22,777 nt of DNA from Candidatus Desantisbacteria bacterium CG1_02_38_46 (lineage in GTDB: Bacteria > Desantisbacteria > UBA1551 > UBA1559). Location of the stretch: contig MNUO01000030.1 in the NCBI GenBank assembly GCA_001871015.1, positions 1 to 22,777 of the forward strand. The letters run 5' to 3'. The first letter of the stretch is position 1, and each line of letters starts with the position of its first letter. Both the position numbers and the translations under genes were made by a program. A model generated the notes under the pieces. It searched no databases. It saw only the letters and a program-made list of their open reading frames with translations, and was not told the origin of the DNA. Of this stretch, positions 3,720 to 18,120 are shown in pieces.

Positions 3720-4520
3720 ATGTATGAAGAGTTTTGGGGATTGAAAGAAAAACCGTTTGAGAACACTCCTGACCCACGTTTTCTTTATAACTCAAACCAG
3801 CACGAAGAAGCGCTTTCCCGCTTGCTCTACGTGATTCGAGAGCGCAAGGGAGCAGGGATGCTTACAGGTGTTTTTGGTTGTGGAAAGACCCTTATTGCAA
3901 AAACTATCCTTGCAGAACTCGGAAGGGATATTTACAGAGTTTCACTTGTCACAAACCCGAGGTTAAATGATGTGGAGCTATTGAGGATGATTGGTTATCA
4001 GCTTGGTGGCGAGGTATTACAGACCACAAAGTCAGATGTACTTATAAGTTTAGAAAATGTTCTTCTCAATAACATAAGGGATGGAAAAAATACAGTTGTC
4101 ATTATAGATGAGGCCCATTCAATTGAAAACAGGGAAGTATTTGAAGAGATAAGACTTTTGTTAAACTTTCAGCACGAAGATAAATTTCTTCTAACAGTTC
4201 TACTGCTCGGTCAGCCAGAATTAAGAGAGAAAATAGACGCAAATAAACAATTGAGCCAACGCATAGCCTTGAAGTATCATCTCCAGGGATTGAGTAAAGA
4301 GGAGGCAGGTTTTTATATTGAACACAGAATAAAAGTTGCAGGTGGCAAAAAGGATATATTTAAACAGGAGGCAAAAGAACTTATCTTTGAGAATTCAGCA
4401 GGCATTCCACGCAGAATAAATCAAATATGTGATATGGCTCTATTTTTGGGTTTTGGCAAAAAGATAAAGTCAGTTGAGAAAGAAATGGTCAGGGAATCTC
4501 TTGCAGGGCTGGAGGGATGA
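3720..4520 (+). CDS. ExeA-like secretion ATPase, second tandem copy
   Basis: 266 residues, clearly paralogous to the preceding gene. Walker A GVFGCGKT is again at residues 50-57 and Walker B VVIIDEAH at about 126-133, with AGIPRRINQICDMALF near the C-terminus in both. The N-terminal roughly 57 residues are nearly identical, including a nearly unchanged DNA stretch (about 3738-3778 against 2920-2960). The middle of the proteins has diverged far more, in the segment following Walker A that reads the sensor strands. ATPase function is seen; coupling to polysaccharide export is inferred from the operon. The stop overlaps the next ATG. Confidence 0.88.
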   Translation: MYEEFWGLKEKPFENTPDPRFLYNSNQHEEALSRLLYVIRERKGAGMLTGVFGCGKTLIAKTILAELGRDIYRVSLVTNPRLNDVELLRMIGYQLGGEVLQTTKSDVLISLENVLLNNIRDGKNTVVIIDEAHSIENREVFEEIRLLLNFQHEDKFLLTVLLLGQPELREKIDANKQLSQRIALKYHLQGLSKEEAGFYIEHRIKVAGGKKDIFKQEAKELIFENSAGIPRRINQICDMALFLGFGKKIKSVEKEMVRESLAGLEG

Positions 4521-5152
4521 TGGGGGTTATGATGAAGATATTAGCGATAGGTGCGCATCCAGATGATCTGGAATATGGGTGTGGGGGAACGCTTTTGAAG
4601 TATAGCAAAAAGGGGGTAAAGATTCATCTTCTTGTTTTAACTCAGGGTGAAATTGGCGGCAAACCAGGAGTGCGTAAAATAGAACAGGGGGAATCAGCAA
4701 AAATACTCAAGGCAAAGGTTTACTGGGGAGGATATGCGGATACAGAGATTCCAAATGATAAAGGTTTGATTTCCAAAATAGAGAACGTAATTAAACTTGT
4801 GAAGCCTGATTTAATTTTTGTCAATTATTTTAATGATACCCACCAGGACCACCGCAGCACTGCCGCTTCCACTATTTCTGCTACAAGGCATTTGAGAAAC
4901 GTTCTTTTCTACGAAGTTCCTACAACCGTGGATTTTACGCCAACTGTTTTTATGGATATCGGCGATGTACTTCAGTATAAAATGAGGTTGCTGAAAGCAC
5001 ATAAATCCCAGGTCTACGCAACAAAGATTGCAGGAAGGGTTGGCATTCTGAGCATTCTGGAAAGCGTGAGGTCCTGTGCCAATTTTAGAGGATTTCAGGG
5101 AAGGGTGAAATACGCAGAAGGGTTTGCACCACTGAGATTGTCATTGAAATGA
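4517..5152 (+). CDS. PIG-L/LmbE family deacetylase
   Basis: 211 residues. ILAIGAHPDDLEYGCGGTL carries the AHPDD zinc and catalytic motif (His14, Asp16, Asp17), and HQDH (109-112) provides the later metal-binding His. Family knowledge: these zinc enzymes remove acetyl groups from N-acetylglucosaminyl substrates, as in GPI-anchor, mycothiol and bacillithiol synthesis. Here, between an ExeA-like ATPase and a sugar aminotransferase, the likely substrate is an amino-sugar intermediate of the exopolysaccharide, but this is inference. Start choice is unclear: ATGs occur at 4517, 4520, 4529 and 4532, and GGAGGG ends directly before 4517, so 4529 or 4532 are better spaced for initiation. Confidence 0.9.
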   Translation: MMGVMMKILAIGAHPDDLEYGCGGTLLKYSKKGVKIHLLVLTQGEIGGKPGVRKIEQGESAKILKAKVYWGGYADTEIPNDKGLISKIENVIKLVKPDLIFVNYFNDTHQDHRSTAASTISATRHLRNVLFYEVPTTVDFTPTVFMDIGDVLQYKMRLLKAHKSQVYATKIAGRVGILSILESVRSCANFRGFQGRVKYAEGFAPLRLSLK

Positions 5153-8550: not shown

Positions 8551-8727
8551 ATGAGGTTAACAGCATTAATTTGTGTTATTATTGCAGTTGTGAGTTTAGT
8601 GGTTGGCATTGTTTCCCGGCTGATGGTAACACCGATGGGTCCAGGGGGACTTGAATCGAGAGCATTCGCTGGTTTCAGTGCAGTCATGCTTCTTCTCGCA
8701 ATAGCATTGTCAGCTCTCAAGAAATAA
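8551..8727 (+). CDS. Small two-helix membrane protein of unknown function
   Basis: 58 residues beginning MRLTALICVIIAVV. Two hydrophobic segments (about 3-22 and 40-56) flank a conserved-looking polar linker SRLMVTPMGPGGLESRAFAG. A ribosome site (AAGGAGG, about 8 bases upstream) and its own promoter support it as a real gene. The linker and second helix recur almost unchanged in a truncated copy at 9770-9895, where most DNA differences fall at third codon positions, so the protein has been under selection. I do not recognise a family. Confidence 0.72.
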   Translation: MRLTALICVIIAVVSLVVGIVSRLMVTPMGPGGLESRAFAGFSAVMLLLAIALSALKK

Positions 8728-9682: not shown

Positions 9683-9769
9683 AATGGTGTCTGTCCCTAT
9701 TTTTACCCCAGCTACAAATACAAAGGAGAGTTGTTAGATGTTGAGGTCTGACCCCATTATTTTAATGAT
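9683..9769 (+). other. Mobile-element-like junction with two related motifs
   Basis: Between hepT and the truncated gene copy are GTGTCTGTCCCTATTTTTA (about 9687-9705) and GTCTGACCCCATTATTTTA (about 9746-9764). They share a GTCTG-(A/T)-CCC-then-T/A-rich pattern in the same orientation, about 60 bases apart. I recall such GTCTGACCCC strings near IS200/REP-associated elements, but no transposase is present. The second motif abuts the break point of the duplicated gene. Confidence 0.4.
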
Positions 9770-9895
9770 GGCATTGTTTCACGGCTGATGGTAACGCCGA
9801 TGGGTCCATGGGGACTTGAATCAAGAGCATTTGCAGGTTTCAGTGCAGTTATGCTTCTGCTTGCAATAGCACTATTATCGCTTGAGAAAAAATAA
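9770..9895 (+). pseudogene. 5'-truncated second copy of the 58-residue membrane-protein gene
   Basis: From GGCATTGTTTC to the TAA this matches 8605-8727 closely and encodes GIVSRLMVTPMGP then W in place of G, followed by GLESRAFAGFSAVMLL, 41 residues against 40. The first 18 codons, including the start and first helix, are missing, and a TGA lies in frame at 9749-9751 just upstream. Most differences are synonymous, so the duplication predates the truncation or the copies come from related strains. It is probably not expressed as a full protein. Confidence 0.8.
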
Positions 9896-9907: not shown

Positions 9908-10219
9908 ATGAGTCCAGGATGTTCTGAATATTACTTGTCCAGATGTTATGAGAAGAGTTCTTCTATTGTCTCAAGGAAAATTGACGACGAAGTCATACTT
10001 GTGCCAATCCGCAAGAATGTAGGTGATCTGGAAAGCATATATACTCTGAACGAGGTAGCAAGCCGTATTTGGGAGCTCATCGACGGCAAAAGAAAAGTAA
10101 GGGAAATTAAGGAAATAATTATTGAGGAGTTCGATGTAAGTCCACAGGAGGCAGAGAAGGATGCAGTCGAATTCCTGCAACAACTAGAGAAGATGGGTGG
10201 CATTAAAACTGTGGAGTAG
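9908..10219 (+). CDS. PqqD-like RiPP recognition element protein
   Basis: 103 residues from ATG 9908 (a TTG at 9896 is an alternative; neither has a strong ribosome site). The pattern is that of PqqD: two beta strands (VSRKIDDEVILVPI), then the hallmark LNEVASRIWELIDGKRKVREIKEIIIEEFDVSP and a final helix ending FLQQLEKMGGI. Family knowledge: PqqD folds as a winged helix that binds the leader of a precursor peptide and delivers it to a radical SAM enzyme. It directly precedes two radical SAM genes and is most likely the leader carrier of this cluster. A Cys-containing extension of about 20 residues (PGCSEYYLSRCYEKSS) precedes the domain and is unexplained. Confidence 0.85.
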   Translation: MSPGCSEYYLSRCYEKSSSIVSRKIDDEVILVPIRKNVGDLESIYTLNEVASRIWELIDGKRKVREIKEIIIEEFDVSPQEAEKDAVEFLQQLEKMGGIKTVE

Positions 10220-10231
10220 GAGGAGTGGTTA

Positions 10232-11359
10232 TTGAGGCCCGAAGAAAGTATCTTCATGAAGGAATACCTGGTGAGCAAGGCAAAACAGACCATGCCAATA
10301 AGTGCGAGGTGCAATTTACGCTGTGTATTCTGCTCCAATTATAGTAATCCCTTTCCTATTACCAGGGATGTGTTCAGGGACTTAGAAGATATAAAAGCCA
10401 ACATTCCTCTTTTGCAACCATTCAATGGAACTATAAATATTAGCGAAAACATACCGGGCCGAATTGCCGAAGGAGAGGCACTACTTCATCCAAAACTATT
10501 TGAAATATTGAATTTAATCAGAAAAAGGTTCAGGTATACAGAAACAATAGAATTTTCCACTAACGGTACCACTCTCACCGAGGAGATGATAAAGAAATTG
10601 TACGCCTACATGCCTATCAGAATCAGAACAATCTCTATGAATTCATCAAGCATAAATTACTGGCAGGAGATATCAGTGGGGATGAGAAAGCAGGGAGAGA
10701 TAGCCATTAAAGCTGTAGAACTTTTAGGGAAATACTCCATTCCTTTTGATGGCTCTATTGTGGCTGTGCCAAAGATTACAGGATGGGAGGGAATAGAAGA
10801 GACGATAAAATATTATGTAAAAAATAATGTCCGTGAGATAATTATCTGGCATCCAGGCTATTCAAAACTGATAGACCCTCGTATTAAAGAAAAGATAGAA
10901 TGTTCTTTTGAAGAGCTGAGTAAGTTTGCGACAAAAATGAGGAAGGTTTATAAAAAGCCAATCAATCTTTTTCCCGATTTGCTTATGCCCTGCTCGGTAA
11001 ATATCCAAAAAATTATGGACTTTATGCAGGATATGGGCAAAGCAAAAGTACTCTGGTTAGTATCTGAAGCAGCAAAGGAGATGCTTGGTCTTGAGATAGA
11101 GAGATACTCTCCTTATGTGTGGAATGAGCATTTCGTTATGCCGGTTAAAAATCTAACCTATGGAGGAAATATAATCGTTTCAGGACTGCTCACTGTAGAT
11201 GACTTTATCAGGGCTGGAAAAGAATTCCTTAAAACCAAGTCGGATATAGACCTGGTTCTTGTGCCAAAGGAACCCCTTGATACAGCGGGCCAGGATTTAT
11301 TATATACCCCTTATTATAAAATTGAAGAGGAACTGGGTTGTCAAGTTAAGGTGGTATAG
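10232..11359 (+). CDS. Radical SAM enzyme with DUF512-like C-terminal domain
   Basis: 375 residues from TTG 10232, chosen because AGGAGGAG (10218-10225) is well placed. Residues 27-34 (CNLRCVFC) are the C-x3-C-x2-C [4Fe-4S] motif, and EGEALLHP (80-87) replaces the usual GGEP SAM-contact motif. No SPASM cysteine cluster follows. The C-terminus (about 300-375: VKNLTYGGNIIVSGLLTVDDF, then IDLVLVPKEPLDTAGQDLLY and EELG) resembles DUF512, a domain normally found in another radical SAM family with an N-terminal PDZ domain. Substrate unknown. Position between PqqD-like and SPASM genes suggests it acts on the peptide or makes a cofactor for it. The DUF512 assignment is from memory. Confidence 0.82.
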   Translation: MRPEESIFMKEYLVSKAKQTMPISARCNLRCVFCSNYSNPFPITRDVFRDLEDIKANIPLLQPFNGTINISENIPGRIAEGEALLHPKLFEILNLIRKRFRYTETIEFSTNGTTLTEEMIKKLYAYMPIRIRTISMNSSSINYWQEISVGMRKQGEIAIKAVELLGKYSIPFDGSIVAVPKITGWEGIEETIKYYVKNNVREIIIWHPGYSKLIDPRIKEKIECSFEELSKFATKMRKVYKKPINLFPDLLMPCSVNIQKIMDFMQDMGKAKVLWLVSEAAKEMLGLEIERYSPYVWNEHFVMPVKNLTYGGNIIVSGLLTVDDFIRAGKEFLKTKSDIDLVLVPKEPLDTAGQDLLYTPYYKIEEELGCQVKVV

Positions 11360-12484
11360 ATGAAAGATTTTCGCGGGTCCCCGATTAAATATGGAGATTT
11401 TAGCCAGCACCTTCACGAGAAGGGAGCTAAGAAGGGAATACCCCTCAACGGAGAGATTGACCTAACCTACCGCTGCAACTTAAAGTGTGGTCATTGTTAC
11501 GGCGTTTATGAACCGGACAAAAAAGAACTCACTACCGATGAGGTCATGCGCATCCTCGATGAGATGAATCAAGCAGGGTGCCTCTGGTTATTGTTAAGTG
11601 GAGGGGAGCCTCTGGTACGCAAGGACTTCCGGGAAATTTATGACTATGCCAAAAAGAAAGGTTTTATTATTACTCTATTTACTAATGGAACGCTCATTAC
11701 TCCTGAGATTGTTGTTCTCCTTCGTGAGTATCGTCCCTTTTCCGTGGAAGTTAGTCTTTATGGCATAAGCAAAGAAATCTATGAGAAAGTTACTGGGGTA
11801 GTTGGTTCTTTCAAGCGCTGCATGAAAGGCATTCATTTATTACTGGAGCACAGGATTCCACTCAAGGTAAAAACTACAGTGACAACCTTAAATCAGCATG
11901 AATTGTGGAAGATAAAGAAATATGTTGAGGAAGAGTTAAAGGTGGAATTTAGATTTGATGCCACGATTAGCCCTAAACTTGACGGTTCTAAAGGACCCTG
12001 TAATTTAAGGATACCCCCGGAGGAAGTAGTTAAACTTGACATTGCTGATGAAAGACGGTTCAAAGAATGGACAGAAATCTGTAAGAGATTCTGGGGACCA
12101 ATTCATTCTGATACATTATATAATTGTGGAGCAGGACTGAGTTCATTCCATGTTGATCCTTATGGAATGTTGCGTATCTGCCTTATGGTTCGCACCCCGA
12201 GATGGAACCTGCGTCAATTCAGTTTTCAAGAAAGCTGGAAGGAGCTCAATAAATTCAGGATGCAAAAAGCAGGCACCGACTCGAGGTGCAGGAATTGTGA
12301 AATTGCTTTTTGTGATTGGTGCCCGGGATGGGCACAGGTGGAAAATGGAGACCTCGAGACACCGGTAGAATACCTTTGCCAGATTGCCCATTTACAAGCA
12401 AAGGCATTTGGTATGATAAGAGGAGGTGATTTAAATGAAGAAGGAAAAAAAGTTTTATCAAAAGCCTCAGATAAAAGAGGTTAA
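11360..12484 (+). CDS. PqqE-like radical SAM/SPASM peptide maturase
   Basis: 374 residues. CNLKCGHC (Cys39, 43, 46) binds the radical SAM cluster, and SGGEP (80-84) contacts SAM. The C-terminal SPASM domain has C256-x12-G-x4-C274 and C310-x2-C313-x4-C318-x2-C321, then C340, enough to hold auxiliary iron-sulfur clusters. Family knowledge: SPASM enzymes of this kind form thioether, C-C or other crosslinks in ribosomal peptides. It starts one base after the previous stop, and its last 50 bases overlap the precursor gene at 12435, the strongest evidence that it matures that peptide. It is the best candidate for the main core-modifying enzyme. Confidence 0.93.
   Translation: MKDFRGSPIKYGDFSQHLHEKGAKKGIPLNGEIDLTYRCNLKCGHCYGVYEPDKKELTTDEVMRILDEMNQAGCLWLLLSGGEPLVRKDFREIYDYAKKKGFIITLFTNGTLITPEIVVLLREYRPFSVEVSLYGISKEIYEKVTGVVGSFKRCMKGIHLLLEHRIPLKVKTTVTTLNQHELWKIKKYVEEELKVEFRFDATISPKLDGSKGPCNLRIPPEEVVKLDIADERRFKEWTEICKRFWGPIHSDTLYNCGAGLSSFHVDPYGMLRICLMVRTPRWNLRQFSFQESWKELNKFRMQKAGTDSRCRNCEIAFCDWCPGWAQVENGDLETPVEYLCQIAHLQAKAFGMIRGGDLNEEGKKVLSKASDKRG
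12421..12430 (+). promoter_or_regulatory. Near-perfect ribosome binding site of the precursor gene
   Basis: AGGAGGTGAT is complementary to the 16S rRNA 3' end over ten bases and ends 4 bases before ATG 12435. It lies inside the SPASM gene, and no other ribosome site in the window matches so well, consistent with making the precursor in excess over its enzymes. Confidence 0.75.
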
Positions 12485-12599
12485 ATTAGTTCCTGGAGAG
12501 GCAGTTTTGATGGGTTGCAAATCAACAGGGAGTGCAGGTAGCAAAGCAGGTAGATGTCAATCGGTTTCAGCCTGCAACAATAGAGTCCTTGATTCTTAA
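12435..12599 (+). CDS. RiPP precursor peptide (candidate)
   Basis: A 54-residue gene. The leader is MKKEKKFYQKPQIKEVKLVP then GEAVLMG, basic and then alternating, followed by a small-residue core with Cys28, Cys41 and Cys47 and the C-terminus RVLDS. Core composition is dominated by Gly, Ser and Ala with a few Arg, Asn and Gln, typical of modified peptides and unlike a globular protein. The excellent ribosome site, the overlap with the SPASM enzyme and the upstream PqqD-like gene all point to a substrate. The Y-x-KP-x-I-x2-V-x-L-x-P-x-EAVL pattern reminds me of Cys-containing substrates of other SPASM enzymes, but I cannot name a family. It lacks the E-x3-Y crosslink motif of PqqA. Cleavage could fall after Gly27 or nearby. 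Confidence 0.78.
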   Translation: MKKEKKFYQKPQIKEVKLVPGEAVLMGCKSTGSAGSKAGRCQSVSACNNRVLDS

Positions 12600-12640
12600 T
12601 CTACAACTGATTTATTCCCTCAAAGAGAGACACGTCACTT

Positions 12641-13522
12641 ATGCCTGAAGAGAAGTTCTTAAGAGAATTGAAATTGGGGATTGGCGGCATCAGCATCTCG
12701 ATTAATTTTCCTGATTCAAAGAAGGGTTTCGAAGTCGATGATGCCTACAGACGTTTTATTACTACTGATAAGCCCGAGATAGTTCTGCATCTCCATTGTG
12801 GTCATATTCCCTGGATTGAGTCCGGGGAAAAAGTTTTTGATAGCAGTATTTGGAAGCTCTATCGCAAGAACGGAAAGCACATTCTCGGGTTCTATTTCTA
12901 TAATTCAGGTAACTTTCCATATAAGATAGCGGTGCTCGCGCATGATTTTAAATCAGGTGATATTTATATTAAAAATGACGGGTTCAATCACAGTTATTTT
13001 CTCAATCCTTTGGAATATCCCTTAGGTCAAGTTTTAATGATAAATCTACTTTCCAGAAAACGGGGAATGATGGTTCATGCCTGTGGAATTGAGATTAATG
13101 GAAGTGGAATTCTCTTTGTGGGGAAATCTGGAGAAGGAAAAAGTACACTTGCAAATTTATGCAGGAAGGAAAGGGATATAATCCTTTTGAATGATGATAG
13201 AATCATTGTCCGCGAAATGAAGAATGACTTTTTAATATATGGCACTCCCTGGCATGGAGATGTAAAAATTTGCTCTTTAGACCCCATGCCTTTAAGAAAG
13301 ATTTTCCTTCTCAAACACGCCTCCAGGAATTATCTGACAAGGCTAAGCAACATTGAAGCATGTTCCAGGTTACTTGTGCGTGTGTTCCCTCCTATTTGGA
13401 GTCACTCGGGTATGGAATATACACTGGCACTTTCTGCTGAAATCACCCGGGTAATCCCCTGTTTTGAACTGGAATTTGTGCCTGATAAAAGCGCTATTGA
13501 TTTCATCAGGAGTCAAATATAA
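12641..13522 (+). CDS. HPr-kinase-like protein (HprK-related)
   Basis: 293 residues. The C-terminal half shows VHACGIEINGSGILFVGKSGEGKST with a P-loop GKSGEGKST (161-169), then LLNDDRI (182-188) and YGTPWHGD (200-207), the pattern of HPr kinase/phosphorylase-related proteins. The N-terminal about 130 residues look like a substrate-binding beta domain. Family knowledge: stand-alone members occur in RiPP loci, and in paeninodin-type lasso clusters they phosphorylate the precursor's C-terminal serine. Here the precursor ends in Ser, so phosphorylation of Ser54 is a reasonable inference. The ribosome site is weak. Stop and next start overlap by one base (TAATG). A role in sugar regulation is unlikely because no HPr or PTS gene is nearby. 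Confidence 0.85.
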   Translation: MPEEKFLRELKLGIGGISISINFPDSKKGFEVDDAYRRFITTDKPEIVLHLHCGHIPWIESGEKVFDSSIWKLYRKNGKHILGFYFYNSGNFPYKIAVLAHDFKSGDIYIKNDGFNHSYFLNPLEYPLGQVLMINLLSRKRGMMVHACGIEINGSGILFVGKSGEGKSTLANLCRKERDIILLNDDRIIVREMKNDFLIYGTPWHGDVKICSLDPMPLRKIFLLKHASRNYLTRLSNIEACSRLLVRVFPPIWSHSGMEYTLALSAEITRVIPCFELEFVPDKSAIDFIRSQI

Positions 13523-14673
13523 TGGCTATCGGTCCTATCGGTCACAAAGCCCTAATTGCTGATACTGTTCGAACTACTGCTTACAAGAAGGCAATTTTCG
13601 AAACAGTCGAAGATGGCGATGTAGTGGTGGATTTGGGAACGGGTACGGGAGTCCTTGCCTTCTTCGCCTGTCAGGCAGGGGCGAGGAAGGTGTACGCCAT
13701 TGAGGAAAAGAAAATAATTGAACTTGCAAAAGAGATTGCCAAGGCAAACAATTTAGAGAAAAAAATAGTTTTTATAAGGGATATTTCCAATGAGGCTACT
13801 TTACCCGAAAAGGTGGATGTTTTAGTCTCAGAGATAATAGGAAATTTTGCTTATACTGAGAATCTTCTCCATTTTCTCCTTGATGCACGGGACCGTTTTC
13901 TAAAGAAAAATGGAACCTTAATTCCTTCTTCAGTTGAGATATTTCTTGTTCCTGTAGAGGCTCCAAAGATCTATAATGAAATAACTTTTTGGAATAAAGA
14001 ACTTTATGGAATTAATTTTCTTCCAGCACATAAAGTTGATGTGAATACTCTTCACAACTGTCGAATTGAAACCGAATTTTTCTTATCCACTCCACGATTA
14101 ATAAAACATATTGACTTTAATAAAGTTCAAAAGCCTGAAGAATTATATTTGGAAGAAACTGTTTCCTTTGTCCTCAATCGCTCTGGAATATTACATGGTC
14201 TAGCTGGATGGTTTGATATCCACCTCTCCAAAAACGTTTTGCTATCAACTTCACCTGCTTCGTCCATCACCCACTGGGAGCAAACTTTTTTTCCTATAGA
14301 AAAATCAATAGAGGTAGCAAAGGGAGATGCTGTTAAGGTAGAAATAATTGCTACTCCCTGGCAGGAAGATATTGTTTATAGTTGGAATGTACAGGTGGGG
14401 AAGAATAGTTTTAGTCATTCTACTCTTCAAGTTCCTTCGTTTTCTAAGAAGGACTTCTTGAGCCGTTCAATCGATTTTGTCCCAACACTTTCAAATGCAG
14501 GAAAGGAAGAACTTTTTATCCTTAGCTGCTGTAACGGAAAGAATACTATTCAACAAATTGCCCAAGAATTATGCAAGCACTATCCGGAAATCTATAATAA
14601 CCTAAGAAAGGCTTTAATCAGAGTGGGAAAAACAGTGAAGAAATACTCTCATGGAAAAATTCAAAAAAGATGA
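13522..14673 (+). CDS. PRMT-like arginine methyltransferase with fused PqqD-like domain
   Basis: 383 residues. Residues 14-21 (DTVRTTAY) match the D-x2-R-x3-Y start of protein arginine methyltransferases; DLGTGTGVLA (37-46) binds SAM; SEIIGNFAYTE (103-113) fits the double-glutamate loop (Glu104, Glu113), and THWEQTFF (250-257) fits the THW loop. All four are landmarks of the PRMT family, which is rare in bacteria. Residues about 318-375 (FVPTLSNAGKEELFILSCCNGKNTI and IAQELCKHYP) resemble PqqD's final strand and helix, so a leader-binding domain seems fused to the enzyme. The precursor core has Arg40 and Arg50, plausible targets. The gene overlaps the next by 23 bases. Function is inferred from motifs. 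Confidence 0.78.
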   Translation: MAIGPIGHKALIADTVRTTAYKKAIFETVEDGDVVVDLGTGTGVLAFFACQAGARKVYAIEEKKIIELAKEIAKANNLEKKIVFIRDISNEATLPEKVDVLVSEIIGNFAYTENLLHFLLDARDRFLKKNGTLIPSSVEIFLVPVEAPKIYNEITFWNKELYGINFLPAHKVDVNTLHNCRIETEFFLSTPRLIKHIDFNKVQKPEELYLEETVSFVLNRSGILHGLAGWFDIHLSKNVLLSTSPASSITHWEQTFFPIEKSIEVAKGDAVKVEIIATPWQEDIVYSWNVQVGKNSFSHSTLQVPSFSKKDFLSRSIDFVPTLSNAGKEELFILSCCNGKNTIQQIAQELCKHYPEIYNNLRKALIRVGKTVKKYSHGKIQKR

Positions 14674-15160
14674 TGTCGTTGAGTTAATTAAGGAAATAAT
14701 GGATAAAGGAGCATGTCTTAGATTCCGTACTACAGTAGGAGCAAGCATGCATCCTTTTATCAGGGATGGAGATATTCTCTGGGTCAAACCTGTCAATGCT
14801 TCTGAGATAAAGATTGGGGATGTCATTTTTTATCGTAATTCAAATGGAGGAATAACTGTTCACCGGCTTATAAAAAAAATTTCAAAGAATGGCAAATTAT
14901 CCTTCCTGACAAAAGGGGATTCTGTTTCCGGGGTTGATGAAATCATATATCCGGAACAAGTCCAGGGCAAAGTTATAATTATTGAACATAATAAATGGAG
15001 AATAAGAATTGATAGGGGTCCGGGCAGAATAGTAGGATTTCTCTGGGCAAGAATTTCAATGTTTAGTCCATGGGTTTATTACCCGTTCAGGAAAATCAAG
15101 CGATTATTTCTAAAAATAAAGGTTTCATTAAAAAGAACATGCGCCAAGAAGATTTGCTGA
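14651..15160 (+). CDS. S26-type serine peptidase
   Basis: 169 residues. VGASMHPFIRDGD carries the nucleophile Ser32, GDVIFYRN (56-63) is the next box, ITVHRLIKK provides His71 and TKGDS (87-91) is the last conserved box. A Ser-His pair (not Ser-Lys) matches the SipW/archaeal signal-peptidase-like branch. Unlike true signal peptidases there is no N-terminal membrane helix. A hydrophobic, aromatic stretch at about 127-146 might attach it to the membrane peripherally. It lies between a tailoring enzyme and a nucleotidyltransferase in a RiPP cluster, so removal of the precursor leader is the likely job, which is inference. Confidence 0.83.
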   Translation: MEKFKKDDVVELIKEIMDKGACLRFRTTVGASMHPFIRDGDILWVKPVNASEIKIGDVIFYRNSNGGITVHRLIKKISKNGKLSFLTKGDSVSGVDEIIYPEQVQGKVIIIEHNKWRIRIDRGPGRIVGFLWARISMFSPWVYYPFRKIKRLFLKIKVSLKRTCAKKIC

Positions 15161-16284
15161 TTCGCAAATGTATTTTTCCCATTGATAAGGAAAAAATTGA
15201 GGCATTTTTAAGCCCAGGATTAAACTGGGCTTATATTTTTAATGAGAGCCTCAAGCAGAATGTGGCTCCCTTGTTATATTATAACCTGCTTGAAGCAAAA
15301 TCCATAAGGGAGAAAATACCCAGAGATATCTGGGAGAAATTCGAGAGGACTTATTACAGTATCGCTGCCTATAATACCTGCTTACTTGAGGAACTCCAGA
15401 AAGTTTTAAAATCCCTTTTAGAATCCGGAATAGAGGTCATTGTGCTGAAAGGAATGGCTCTGGTTGAAAGGGTGTATCCCGTGCTTGCGCTTCGGCCTAT
15501 GGCTGACATTGACCTCTTAGTTCACGAGGAGGATATGCCTGAGGTTGAGGCCAGATTAGATGAATTGGGTTATGAGAATTTGACCAGGGGGCCGGAAGAC
15601 TTTATTAAAAAAATTGGAGGAAATTTTATTGTAGATATAGATATCCATTCGGAGATTTTAAACATTACCCGTGTTCCCTCCCGGCGAAAATCCCATCGGG
15701 TTAATCTGGAACGCCTTTGGAAAAATTCTCAAGATACCGAAATTGCTGGGGTTGAAGCGCGCATATTATCTCCTGAGGATTTCCTGATTGACCTTTGTTT
15801 GCATCTGGTAGTCCATCATGGCTTCGAAAAGTTAATCTGGTCTGCTGACATATTTTATGTATCAAATCACTATCGGGAAGTTTTTGACTGGAATAAATTT
15901 GTAAAAGATGCTCTAGAATATAAGGTTGGCAAAGCAGGATATTATACTCTTTATTATGTGAAGGAAATCCTGGGTGCAGAGGTACCTGTAAATGTCATTA
16001 AGATGCTTACTCCCTCAAAACAGAATGGCCTGGAGAGAAGACTCTTCAATCTAATCTTGAGTGGTCAGTCCATAGAGCAGAGCAGATTCCTTTTTACCCT
16101 TTCAATGATAGAGGGATTTGGAGACCAATTGAAACTTCTAAGGGAAATTGTCCTCCCCAGGCCTAGTTTACTGCGGGCAAGATACGACATCCCCCCTTTA
16201 AGAAGTACTTATCCCTATTACCTGCTTCATTTTACAAAGAGTTCCTTCCTTGCATTCAAGGCCTTAAGAAAAGTGATTGCTTGA
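15139..16284 (+). CDS. Family 5 nucleotidyltransferase (NTP_transf_5-like)
   Basis: About 381 residues from ATG 15139. An in-frame ATG at 15070 would overlap the peptidase gene by 91 bases and add unlike residues, so I reject it. EVIVLKGMALVERVYP followed by RPMADIDLLVHEEDM gives the K-G and D-x-D metal motifs of the nucleotidyltransferase superfamily, in the arrangement of PF14907. Family knowledge: such enzymes occur beside HPr-kinase-like proteins in lasso peptide clusters, where they are thought to extend the phosphorylated C-terminus (pseudomycoidin). It is the last plus-strand gene of the cluster. Activity on the phosphorylated precursor is a hypothesis. Confidence 0.83.
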   Translation: MRQEDLLIRKCIFPIDKEKIEAFLSPGLNWAYIFNESLKQNVAPLLYYNLLEAKSIREKIPRDIWEKFERTYYSIAAYNTCLLEELQKVLKSLLESGIEVIVLKGMALVERVYPVLALRPMADIDLLVHEEDMPEVEARLDELGYENLTRGPEDFIKKIGGNFIVDIDIHSEILNITRVPSRRKSHRVNLERLWKNSQDTEIAGVEARILSPEDFLIDLCLHLVVHHGFEKLIWSADIFYVSNHYREVFDWNKFVKDALEYKVGKAGYYTLYYVKEILGAEVPVNVIKMLTPSKQNGLERRLFNLILSGQSIEQSRFLFTLSMIEGFGDQLKLLREIVLPRPSLLRARYDIPPLRSTYPYYLLHFTKSSFLAFKALRKVIA

Positions 16285-16326
16285 TTTTAAGAGGTGGGGC
16301 ATAAGACTTGTCCAAATGGTCACCTT

Positions 16327-17130
16327 TTAATACTGAGAGAGCGTCCCCTCTAACTTTGTCCTCTTAACTGCATATTTAAAAAAGAAGATGCTCAAGGGTA
16401 GGACTATTACACAAAAAAGGACAAGCACGAGGATATCAGGCAGGAGCATTTTGAAAGAGTAGCCCTGCAGTAATGCATGCCTTATTGCCCTCAGAGCATA
16501 GGTGATTGGAAGAAGATGAGAGATTACCTGAACGAAAGGAGGAAGAATTGTGATTGGGAAATATACTCCTCCCAGGAAATCGGAGACATTACCCAGTATC
16601 CAGTTGACGGGGTCTCCTCGTTTGAGGATCATAATAAAAGAAGCAGAGATTATTCCAAAACCTGTAAAGGAACCAAGGGTAAGGAAGAGTATAAGAAAGG
16701 CGGCTCCTATATTGGCATTGCTTATGTCAACGCCAAAGAGCAATGTTCCCAGTAAGAGATAAATTAAAATCTCAGCAGTGGCATAGATGAAGTTCCAGGC
16801 GGATAACGAGAAGATAATGGTAGAAACACGGGTAGGGGTGACCAGCATTGCTTCTAAGGTTCCCATCATCTGCTCACTCCTTAAGTTACCCGAGAAACTG
16901 CCCAGGCCTACTCCCATATAACTGGAAAATGCAATTCCGATGAGCACGAAGGAAAAGTAATCTCCTCCATAGGATTCCAGATAGGGGATCGCTACCTTCC
17001 CAAATAACTTAGTAATAAAATAAAAAGTGAGGATGAAGAAGAGAATGCTTAATATTTCCAACAGGAAGGCAAAGCGATAACTCATCTCATGAAGAATGCC
17101 CTTTTTTAAGAAGGCAACTATCACCCTCAA
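16327..17130 (-). CDS. ABC-2-type transporter permease
   Basis: 267 residues on the minus strand with about six hydrophobic segments. GSFSGNLRSEQMMGTLEAMLVTPT is a strong ABC-2 permease signature (the cytoplasmic loop contacting the ATPase). Family knowledge: two such subunits form the channel of exporters for drugs, peptides or polysaccharides. The start overlaps the ATPase stop by 4 bases. It converges on the RiPP cluster with only 42 bases between stops and is the only exporter nearby, so it may export the mature peptide. The C-terminal codons (LEGTLSQY) read through GAGGGGACGCT, which resembles a short string also present at 6198-6206. Confidence 0.9.
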   Translation of the reverse strand: MRVIVAFLKKGILHEMSYRFAFLLEILSILFFILTFYFITKLFGKVAIPYLESYGGDYFSFVLIGIAFSSYMGVGLGSFSGNLRSEQMMGTLEAMLVTPTRVSTIIFSLSAWNFIYATAEILIYLLLGTLLFGVDISNANIGAAFLILFLTLGSFTGFGIISASFIMILKRGDPVNWILGNVSDFLGGVYFPITILPPFVQVISHLLPITYALRAIRHALLQGYSFKMLLPDILVLVLFCVIVLPLSIFFFKYAVKRTKLEGTLSQY

Positions 17131-17846
17131 TTTCCCTCCTCTTCATGGTTTATTTCTAAGATCTCCTCGAGATCTTCTTTCTTCTCACATACTTGAAATC
17201 TTCCTTTTTGCATTATACCAATACGGTCAGATAATTCCTTTGCTTCTTCAATTTGATGAGTGACAAAGAGAATAGTTTCCTTTTGTTCCCTGGAAAGTTT
17301 TTCTTTGATGAATTTTCTTAAGTGAGAGGCAGCCCTTGGATCCAGGCTTTTCGTGGGTTCATCAACAAGAAGGATTGCAGGGTTATGAAGAAGAGCGCGG
17401 ATAATAGAAAATTTTTGCTTGATGCCAGTAGAATATGTGACAAACATACGGTCCGCATAAAGTTCTACTTCAAGTAAGTTTAATAATTGATTAATCCGTT
17501 CCTTGGATTGAGAGGAGAATAAATTATAGAGAGAGGCATAAAATTCTAAGTTCTGCCTTCCAGTGAGTCGCCAATAAAAAGAGCGTTCATCACCACCAAC
17601 AAACCCAATTGATGATTTCACTCCGATTTCATCTTTTGTGATATCATAACCGTTGACATAAGCAGTGCCTGAGGTTGGAAGAATCAGGGTGGCAAGCATT
17701 TTCAGAAGAGTTGTTTTTCCAGCACCATTTGGTCCTAGCAAACAAAAAACCTCACCTTTTTTTATTTCAAGAGATACATTATCAACAGCTTTGATTATTG
17801 TTTTCTTGCTATAAAAATATTTGGTGAGGTTTACAGTTTCAATCAT
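17127..17846 (-). CDS. ABC transporter ATP-binding protein
   Basis: 239 residues, start at 17846 (MIETVNLTKYF). A longer frame from 17876 is possible, but the family begins here and AAGG lies about 6 bases upstream. Walker A is GPNGAGKT (38-45), the signature is YSTGIKQK (138-145, a common variant of LSGGQ), Walker B with catalytic Glu is ILLVDEP (158-164), and the switch His is His197 (VTHQ). The Q-loop position is GGDERSFYWRL, as in exporters of the DrrA/NodI type. It pairs with the permease at 16327 and has its own promoter on the minus strand. Self-protection against, or export of, the cluster product is the natural inference. Confidence 0.92.
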   Translation of the reverse strand: MIETVNLTKYFYSKKTIIKAVDNVSLEIKKGEVFCLLGPNGAGKTTLLKMLATLILPTSGTAYVNGYDITKDEIGVKSSIGFVGGDERSFYWRLTGRQNLEFYASLYNLFSSQSKERINQLLNLLEVELYADRMFVTYSTGIKQKFSIIRALLHNPAILLVDEPTKSLDPRAASHLRKFIKEKLSREQKETILFVTHQIEEAKELSDRIGIMQKGRFQVCEKKEDLEEILEINHEEEGN

Positions 17847-17927
17847 GAAAAGCCTTGTGACCCTATTCTTCCACATTCCGCTGATTTTTCTATCATTTTT
17901 AGCCTCAATTACTCTGCCACTACATTT

Positions 17928-17990: not shown

Positions 17991-17998
17991 ATATTAAA

Positions 17999-18120
17999 TC
18001 AAACCTAAAGGTTTGAGTTACATCAAACCCTCCGCCATAAAGATTGGCAGATCTTCGAAAAGGTTTGAGTTACGTCAAACCTAAAGGTCTGAGTTACGTA
18101 ACTCAGGACTTTAGTCCTGA
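17999..18120. repeat. Block of related palindromic repeats in the dnaE leader
   Basis: TCAAACCTAAAGGTTTGA (17999-18016) and TCAGGACTTTAGTCCTGA (18103-18120) have the same design: 7-base arms around a TAAA/TTTA centre, but with different arm sequences. Between them GAGTTAC recurs, GAGTTACATCAAACC and GAGTTACGTCAAACC are near-copies, and GAGTTACGTAACTC (18091-18104) is a perfect 14-base palindrome. The CAGGACTTTAGTCCTG core is also inside the PHP gene (1809-1824). Confidence 0.75.

Follow-up and report, generated by a model that had tools for sequence, protein, structure and literature searches.

Several described systems resemble parts of the operon considered here, which lies in a 22,777-nucleotide stretch of DNA (the window) on contig MNUO01000030.1 of Candidatus Desantisbacteria bacterium CG1_02_38_46, a metagenome-assembled genome (MAG) of 88% completeness, and which concerns ribosomally synthesized and post-translationally modified peptides (RiPPs). 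The SynChlorMet cassette (NCBIfam TIGR04248-04251) shares with the window PqqD, two radical S-adenosylmethionine (SAM) enzymes, a small precursor and an HprK-like protein, all in the same order. NCBIfam named such systems but left the roles of their parts unexplained; the likely source of the name is reportedly work by Haft and Basu in 2011, and to our knowledge the system is uncharacterised and without a characterised product. Ranthipeptide and sactipeptide systems (SkfB, CteB and PapB) have in common with the window a SPASM-type maturase and a Cys-containing core on which it acts. Phosphorylated or glycosylated lasso peptide clusters (paeninodin with PadeK/ThcoK, pseudomycoidin with PsmK/PsmN, and BsfK/BsfN) share with it a PqqD-like RiPP recognition element (RRE), a YxxP leader, an HprK-like kinase with a His-Lys-Asp-Asp motif, a terminal Ser and a family-5 nucleotidyltransferase (NTF5) (PMC9266682, PMC10368454). 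In lasso systems the leader motif reads YxxPxL (PMC10368454), the His-Lys-Asp-Asp set is essential to the kinases, the paeninodin-type kinases target the C-terminal Ser, and the pseudomycoidin NTF5 (PsmN) places a hexose onto the C-terminal Ser phosphate (PMC9266682).

The locus in the window is a RiPP operon, comprising a small precursor gene, a leader-binding domain and modifying enzymes that are conserved across genomes, and post-translational modification of its product is predicted. It is a variant within a recurring, uncharacterised RiPP operon family, with a protein arginine methyltransferase (PRMT) and the first of its two radical SAM enzymes (rSAM1) particular to the window copy. Because the intergenic gaps are small or negative, positions 9908-16284 (+) are read as a single transcription unit that encodes, in order, a PqqD-like protein, rSAM1, a second radical SAM enzyme (rSAM2), a 54-residue peptide, an HprK-like kinase, a PRMT-like protein, an S26 peptidase and an NTF5. 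An earlier reading of the DNA, made from its letters alone (hereafter the sequence-only reading), had described contiguous intact genes with tiny gaps from the PqqD-like gene through an ATP-binding cassette (ABC) exporter; this description fits the transcription unit but not the exporter pair (16327-17876), which lies on the minus strand and is convergent with the operon.

Recurrence was surveyed in 386 diverse genomes searched with rSAM2 alone, from which 44 loci were taken by rSAM2 homology, no other gene serving as a criterion. Within 5 kb of the rSAM2 homologue, PqqD was found in 39/44 loci, an HprK-like gene in 35/44, S26 in 25/44 and NTF5 in 17/44, while the 15 loci nearest to the window by rSAM2 all carry both HprK (15/15) and S26 (15/15). 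The usual order across the rSAM2 loci is PqqD, rSAM2, peptide, HprK, S26 and NTF5, without lasso enzymes; rSAM2 orthologues 48-58% identical to that of the window lie in operons of equal layout, and the window PqqD-like peptide chaperone (RRE; 9908..10219, +; PF05402, 66 bits, E 3.2e-18) is 54-71% identical to the PqqD proteins of the closest loci (L140, L176, L177, L178, L179 and L180). With equal neighbours around homologues in dozens of genomes, the association of this gene set is far beyond chance, and the SPASM homologues and the short Cys-containing gene recur as a set across the 44 loci rather than scattering, as the sequence-only reading had anticipated. The S26 peptidase (14651..15160, +; TIGR02228, 64 bits, exceeding the cut-off), a signal-peptidase-like protein proposed to cleave the leader, is tied to the pathway by its fusions to NTF5 (L176, L141 and L052) and to HprK (L127 and L128); in L183, NTF5 was recognized by Pfam and S26 by a custom profile only. 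The full set, with PRMT, is present in a second, independent genome: L052, a MAG from a Deltaproteobacterium that its tree puts in Myxococcota, encodes PqqD, two radical SAM enzymes, peptides and HprK, together with PRMT, a fusion of S26 and NTF5, and an ABC transporter. The conserved core consists of PqqD, the SPASM enzyme, HprK and S26; PRMT and rSAM1 are add-ons of the window copy. At one contig end, L128 has two such cassettes next to each other; their precursors (4448-4735 and 10954-11271) differ, and a number of HprK and radical SAM genes accompany them.

The window precursor (MKKEKKFYQKPQIKEVKLVPGEAVLMGCKSTGSAGSKAGRCQSVSACNNRVLDS; 12435..12599, +) begins inside the 3' end of rSAM2 and is preceded by a strong Shine-Dalgarno sequence (GGAGGTGATTTAAATG). 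Precursors beside rSAM2 constitute one family, with members occupying this position in at least 15 loci; together with the conserved operon, this bears out the earlier assignment as a RiPP locus. Their pattern consists of a K-x-Y-x-x-P-x-I leader, followed by EEAVLxxCK, mostly two further Cys residues and an end in GS, GT, DS or similar; the C-termini include ...QSVSACNNRVLDS in the window (ending ...VLDS), ...DHAQCKRSVYGS in L140, ...VVQCSTIIGS in L142 and ...NLCQHKVSGS in L179. No family model of Pfam or NCBIfam covers these precursors, and a match to FlmA was set aside as weak and due to chance, the associated paper being concerned with arginases. To guard against circularity, a leader-only profile was cut at the first core Cys, so that it never sees the C-terminus; terminal Ser or Thr nonetheless occurs in 16/18 of its significant members, as opposed to 0.12-0.16 among background open reading frames (binomial p 1.4e-11, a value that overstates independence, given that the rows are related by descent). 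The two exceptions are SynChlorMet-like peptides of L052.

This terminal conservation fits a kinase carrying the lasso-kinase His-Lys-Asp-Asp motif, and such a kinase is encoded directly downstream (12641..13522, +; TIGR00679 and PF07475), with His146, Lys167, Asp185 and Asp186 intact in the motif alignment; together with a substrate ending in Ser, it has the features of a lasso-type C-terminal Ser kinase. The C-terminal phosphorylation envisaged by the sequence-only reading accordingly gains from the conserved terminus, while the reaction itself is predicted. Several observations weigh against this interpretation, however. In L125 and L052, SynChlorMet-type loci that carry HprK, the last residue of the precursors is Gly or Ala; the close loci L178, L180 and L181 yielded no precursor; and the Ser phosphorylated by the lasso kinase BsfK is an internal one (PMC10368454). 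For this last reason the phosphorylation site in the window is one that we infer, and from the L125 and L052 termini and BsfK together it follows that a C-terminal target is not universal among HprK-bearing clusters.

The combination of HprK, NTF5, PqqD and YxxP leaders is typical of lasso clusters, and PRMT, HprK and NTF5 genes do occur with a lasso C protein in L030, L041, L042 and L043, so that the window could be imagined as a lasso cluster whose B2 and C genes have been lost or are encoded elsewhere. We regard this as highly improbable and have rejected it as largely refuted. Where lasso clusters have a transglutaminase-like B2 protease and a C cyclase, the window has an S26 peptidase and enzymes of the radical SAM type; in agreement with the sequence-only reading, no B2 or C protein is encoded in the window, no protein of the 88%-complete genome reaches the cut-off for B2 (PF13471), and dozens of relatives likewise lack B and C proteins. 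The core, moreover, contains three Cys residues and no apparent lasso pattern (Gly1 with Asp/Glu7-9). In the kinase tree, the radical-SAM-linked kinases, those of SynChlorMet and the window included, stand apart from the lasso and PRMT-only kinases (split 95/93), the deeper tree being poorly resolved.

The radical SAM enzymes differ sharply in their distribution. The second, rSAM2 (11360..12484, +; PF04055, E 6.7e-24), has a CNLKCGHC motif and a Cys-rich C-terminus that scores 18.3 on PF13186 (SPASM) with a cut-off of 21.5, yet the C-terminal Cys pattern is present; its best match in the PDB, and nearest solved relative, is SkfB (6efn, E 8e-18). A SPASM-type radical SAM enzyme beside a Cys-rich core is a feature of sactipeptides and ranthipeptides, and rSAM2 is a candidate thioether or crosslink maturase, although the window differs from those systems in its separate PqqD, kinase, NTF5 and S26 genes and none of its proteins exceeds the cut-off of an NCBIfam sactipeptide or ranthipeptide maturase model. 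The first, rSAM1 (10232..11359, +; PF04055, with a C-terminal DUF512 match, PF04459), has a CNLRCVFC motif (Cys27, Cys31 and Cys34), no SPASM domain and a poor structural model (predicted local distance difference test score, pLDDT, 66). None of the related clusters contains an equivalent of it, nor do viral contigs contain relatives; its nearest relatives in the 386 genomes are distant, free-standing rSAM-PDZ-DUF512 proteins, and for this reason it was not kept as a marker of the cluster.

Comparison with SynChlorMet bears on the novelty of the locus. The order PqqD, radical SAM, radical SAM, peptide, HprK is found both in the window and in L125, a bona fide SynChlorMet cassette in which HprK reaches 303 bits against ScmC (cut-off 125); L125 continues, after a 55-residue peptide and HprK, with S26 and NTF5, and thereby reproduces the window order minus PRMT. 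The description of the locus as apparently undescribed was therefore too strong, since NCBIfam names a collinear system, one member of which also has S26 and NTF5; a literature search of open-licence papers yielded none describing such a gene combination, an absence that is weak evidence. That the window holds only a divergent form of the SynChlorMet cassette, its PRMT and rSAM1 being ordinary local additions, draws further strength from the ranking of ScmC, ScmD and ScmE among the best named matches of its proteins, but we consider this explanation somewhat unlikely. The window proteins fall far under every SynChlorMet cut-off (HprK 25.6/125, PqqD 35.6/100, rSAM2 109/400 and, on ScmF, rSAM1 14/400), rSAM1 is not ScmF, and the L125 precursor lacks both the EEAVLxxCK motif and the terminal Ser or Thr that mark the window family. 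With scores this low the window is outside SynChlorMet membership as defined by the curators, although it would work in a like manner and is probably a sister of that system, with an additional PRMT.

The PRMT (13522..14673, +) is a real PRMT, belonging to an enzyme type familiar chiefly from animals and plants, and asymmetric arginine dimethylation is its predicted activity. It matches PRMT3 (1f3l) with E 1.5e-42 by sequence, its model (pLDDT 92) retrieves PRMT structures in Foldseek with E 1.1e-32, and it shares with the type I enzymes (PRMT1, PRMT3 and CARM1) the fold, the double-E loop with nine-residue spacing (E104/E113) and the THW loop (250-252). Unlike those enzymes it is bacterial, is encoded inside a RiPP operon and has a C-terminal domain of three helices (residues 320-375), which hhalign aligns to PqqD (prob 82; controls <0.1). 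The collection was scanned for PRMTs with an alignment of four sequences, a six-PRMT alignment being too diverse; inspection of their sequences ruled out the proteins labelled PRMT in L133 and L189, one of which is KsgA-like and the other a methyltransferase of an unrelated kind. PRMT-like genes with a PqqD-like tail also occur in L015-L018, where they accompany PqqD, HprK and NTF5 but no radical SAM gene, and in L027, L030 and L041, where a lasso C protein is present.

It is conceivable, but improbable in our estimation, that the substrate of the PRMT is a host protein, or an ABC or HprK component, and not the peptide. The closest homologous operons lack it, and in L026 a PRMT with a PqqD-like tail (1440-2570, +) adjoins a dimethylargininase/arginine-deiminase-like gene (281-1072, -), an arrangement that suggests real arginine methylation in that lineage and is what free protein-arginine methylation would entail. 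The position of the window PRMT between HprK and S26, its PqqD-like, putatively leader-binding tail and the recurrence of PRMT with PqqD, HprK and NTF5 in L015-L018 and L052 argue for the peptide as target. Weighing against that inclination, the putative cores of L015 and L016 contain no Arg and their PRMTs have no canonical THW loop, so that PRMT-like proteins in clusters of this type may do something else. Since THW loops are degenerate in the copies of L015-L018, L027, L030 and L041, and two cores lack Arg, the canonical arginine methyltransferase looks to be limited to the window-type enzyme, including that of L052, in which THW is kept.

Other observations were made on the PRMT-bearing loci. 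Beside the PRMT of L052, two tandem precursors (10936-11494, -) are rich in Cys-x-Gly-Gly, and one contains Arg-Gly-Gly; RGG is a classic target motif of PRMTs. The L015-L018 layout (a precursor with an RREF...YxxPxI leader and a Gly/Met/Pro-rich tail, PqqD, HprK, PRMT-like and NTF5, with neither radical SAM nor lasso enzymes) is possibly another unnamed RiPP type. In L027, L030, L041, L042 and L043, lasso-type clusters with an asparagine-synthetase-like C protein include a PRMT-like gene, HprK and usually NTF5.

Taken together with what is known of the respective protein families, it is likely that the locus makes and exports a cross-linked, phosphorylated RiPP in the following manner. The PqqD-like protein would hold the precursor leader via its YxxP motif, the conservation of which is observed. 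rSAM2 may then link at least one of the three core Cys residues to backbone or side-chain carbons, as in ranthipeptide- or sactipeptide-like thioethers, or form another radical crosslink. By analogy with paeninodin, the HprK-like kinase would phosphorylate the C-terminal Ser54, and, by analogy with pseudomycoidin, the PsmN-like NTF5 (15139..16284, +; PF14907, E 1.3e-51, 176 bits, with a DxD motif; ATG at 15139 being a more likely start than 15070) would add a nucleotidyl or hexosyl group to the resulting phosphate. The S26 peptidase would remove the leader in place of lasso B2, and an ABC-2 exporter, composed of a permease (16327..17130, -; PF01061) and an ATPase (17127..17876, -; PF00005), would secrete the product. 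In the window copy, the PRMT probably methylates core Arg40 and/or Arg50, docking via its own PqqD-like tail, and rSAM1 may add a second radical step. The PqqD, rSAM2, HprK and S26 steps are the conserved core, common to many genomes and to SynChlorMet, whereas PRMT and rSAM1 are add-ons.

The association of the exporter with the operon, also put forward from the sequence alone, was corroborated by convergent pairs 3' of the operon in L176, L183 and L141 (permease 41-56% and ATPase 40-58% identical). This linkage in several loci, along with core sequences that differ between loci as those of cofactor precursors do not, makes it unlikely that the product serves as a cofactor or redox peptide (in the manner of PQQ or mycofactocin), or as a signal used by its producer, instead of being a secreted antimicrobial, even though PqqD and SPASM systems also make cofactors and polysaccharide genes adjoin the operon.

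More tentatively, and with the odds somewhat against it, the product of the window may define a new RiPP class, namely a radical-crosslinked three-Cys peptide whose conserved C-terminal Ser or Thr is phosphorylated and nucleotidylated or glycosylated without lasso chemistry, with additional arginine methylation by a PRMT that has a built-in leader-binding domain. We know of no earlier demonstration that a PRMT acts as a tailoring enzyme on a ribosomal peptide; if our proposal is true, the arginine-methylating PRMT of the window would be the first, and an enzyme class known mainly from work on eukaryotes would have been put to a new use. The operon family, a widespread one, would unite radical SAM crosslinking with lasso-style C-terminal phosphorylation and NTF5 decoration, its precursor signature renders products predictable, and it allows a direct test of the roles of HprK-like, NTF5 and S26 proteins in RiPP loci outside lasso clusters.

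The second PqqD domain of the same genome (C33) has no RiPP genes nearby. Just upstream of the operon, an MntA-like nucleotidyltransferase and HepT-like pair (PF01909 and PF01934; 9038-9671) is a probable toxin-antitoxin system. A 124-nt direct repeat, 86% identical, lies on either side of these genes (8604-8727 and 9769-9892), the first copy forming the 3' half of an open reading frame for a 58-residue membrane peptide (8551-8727) and the second standing just before PqqD; the arrangement resembles the scar of an insertion. Between the ABC gene and a DNA polymerase III gene, at 17994-18114, lies a cluster of palindromic repeats, all short (AAAGGTTTGAGTTACGT and complements).

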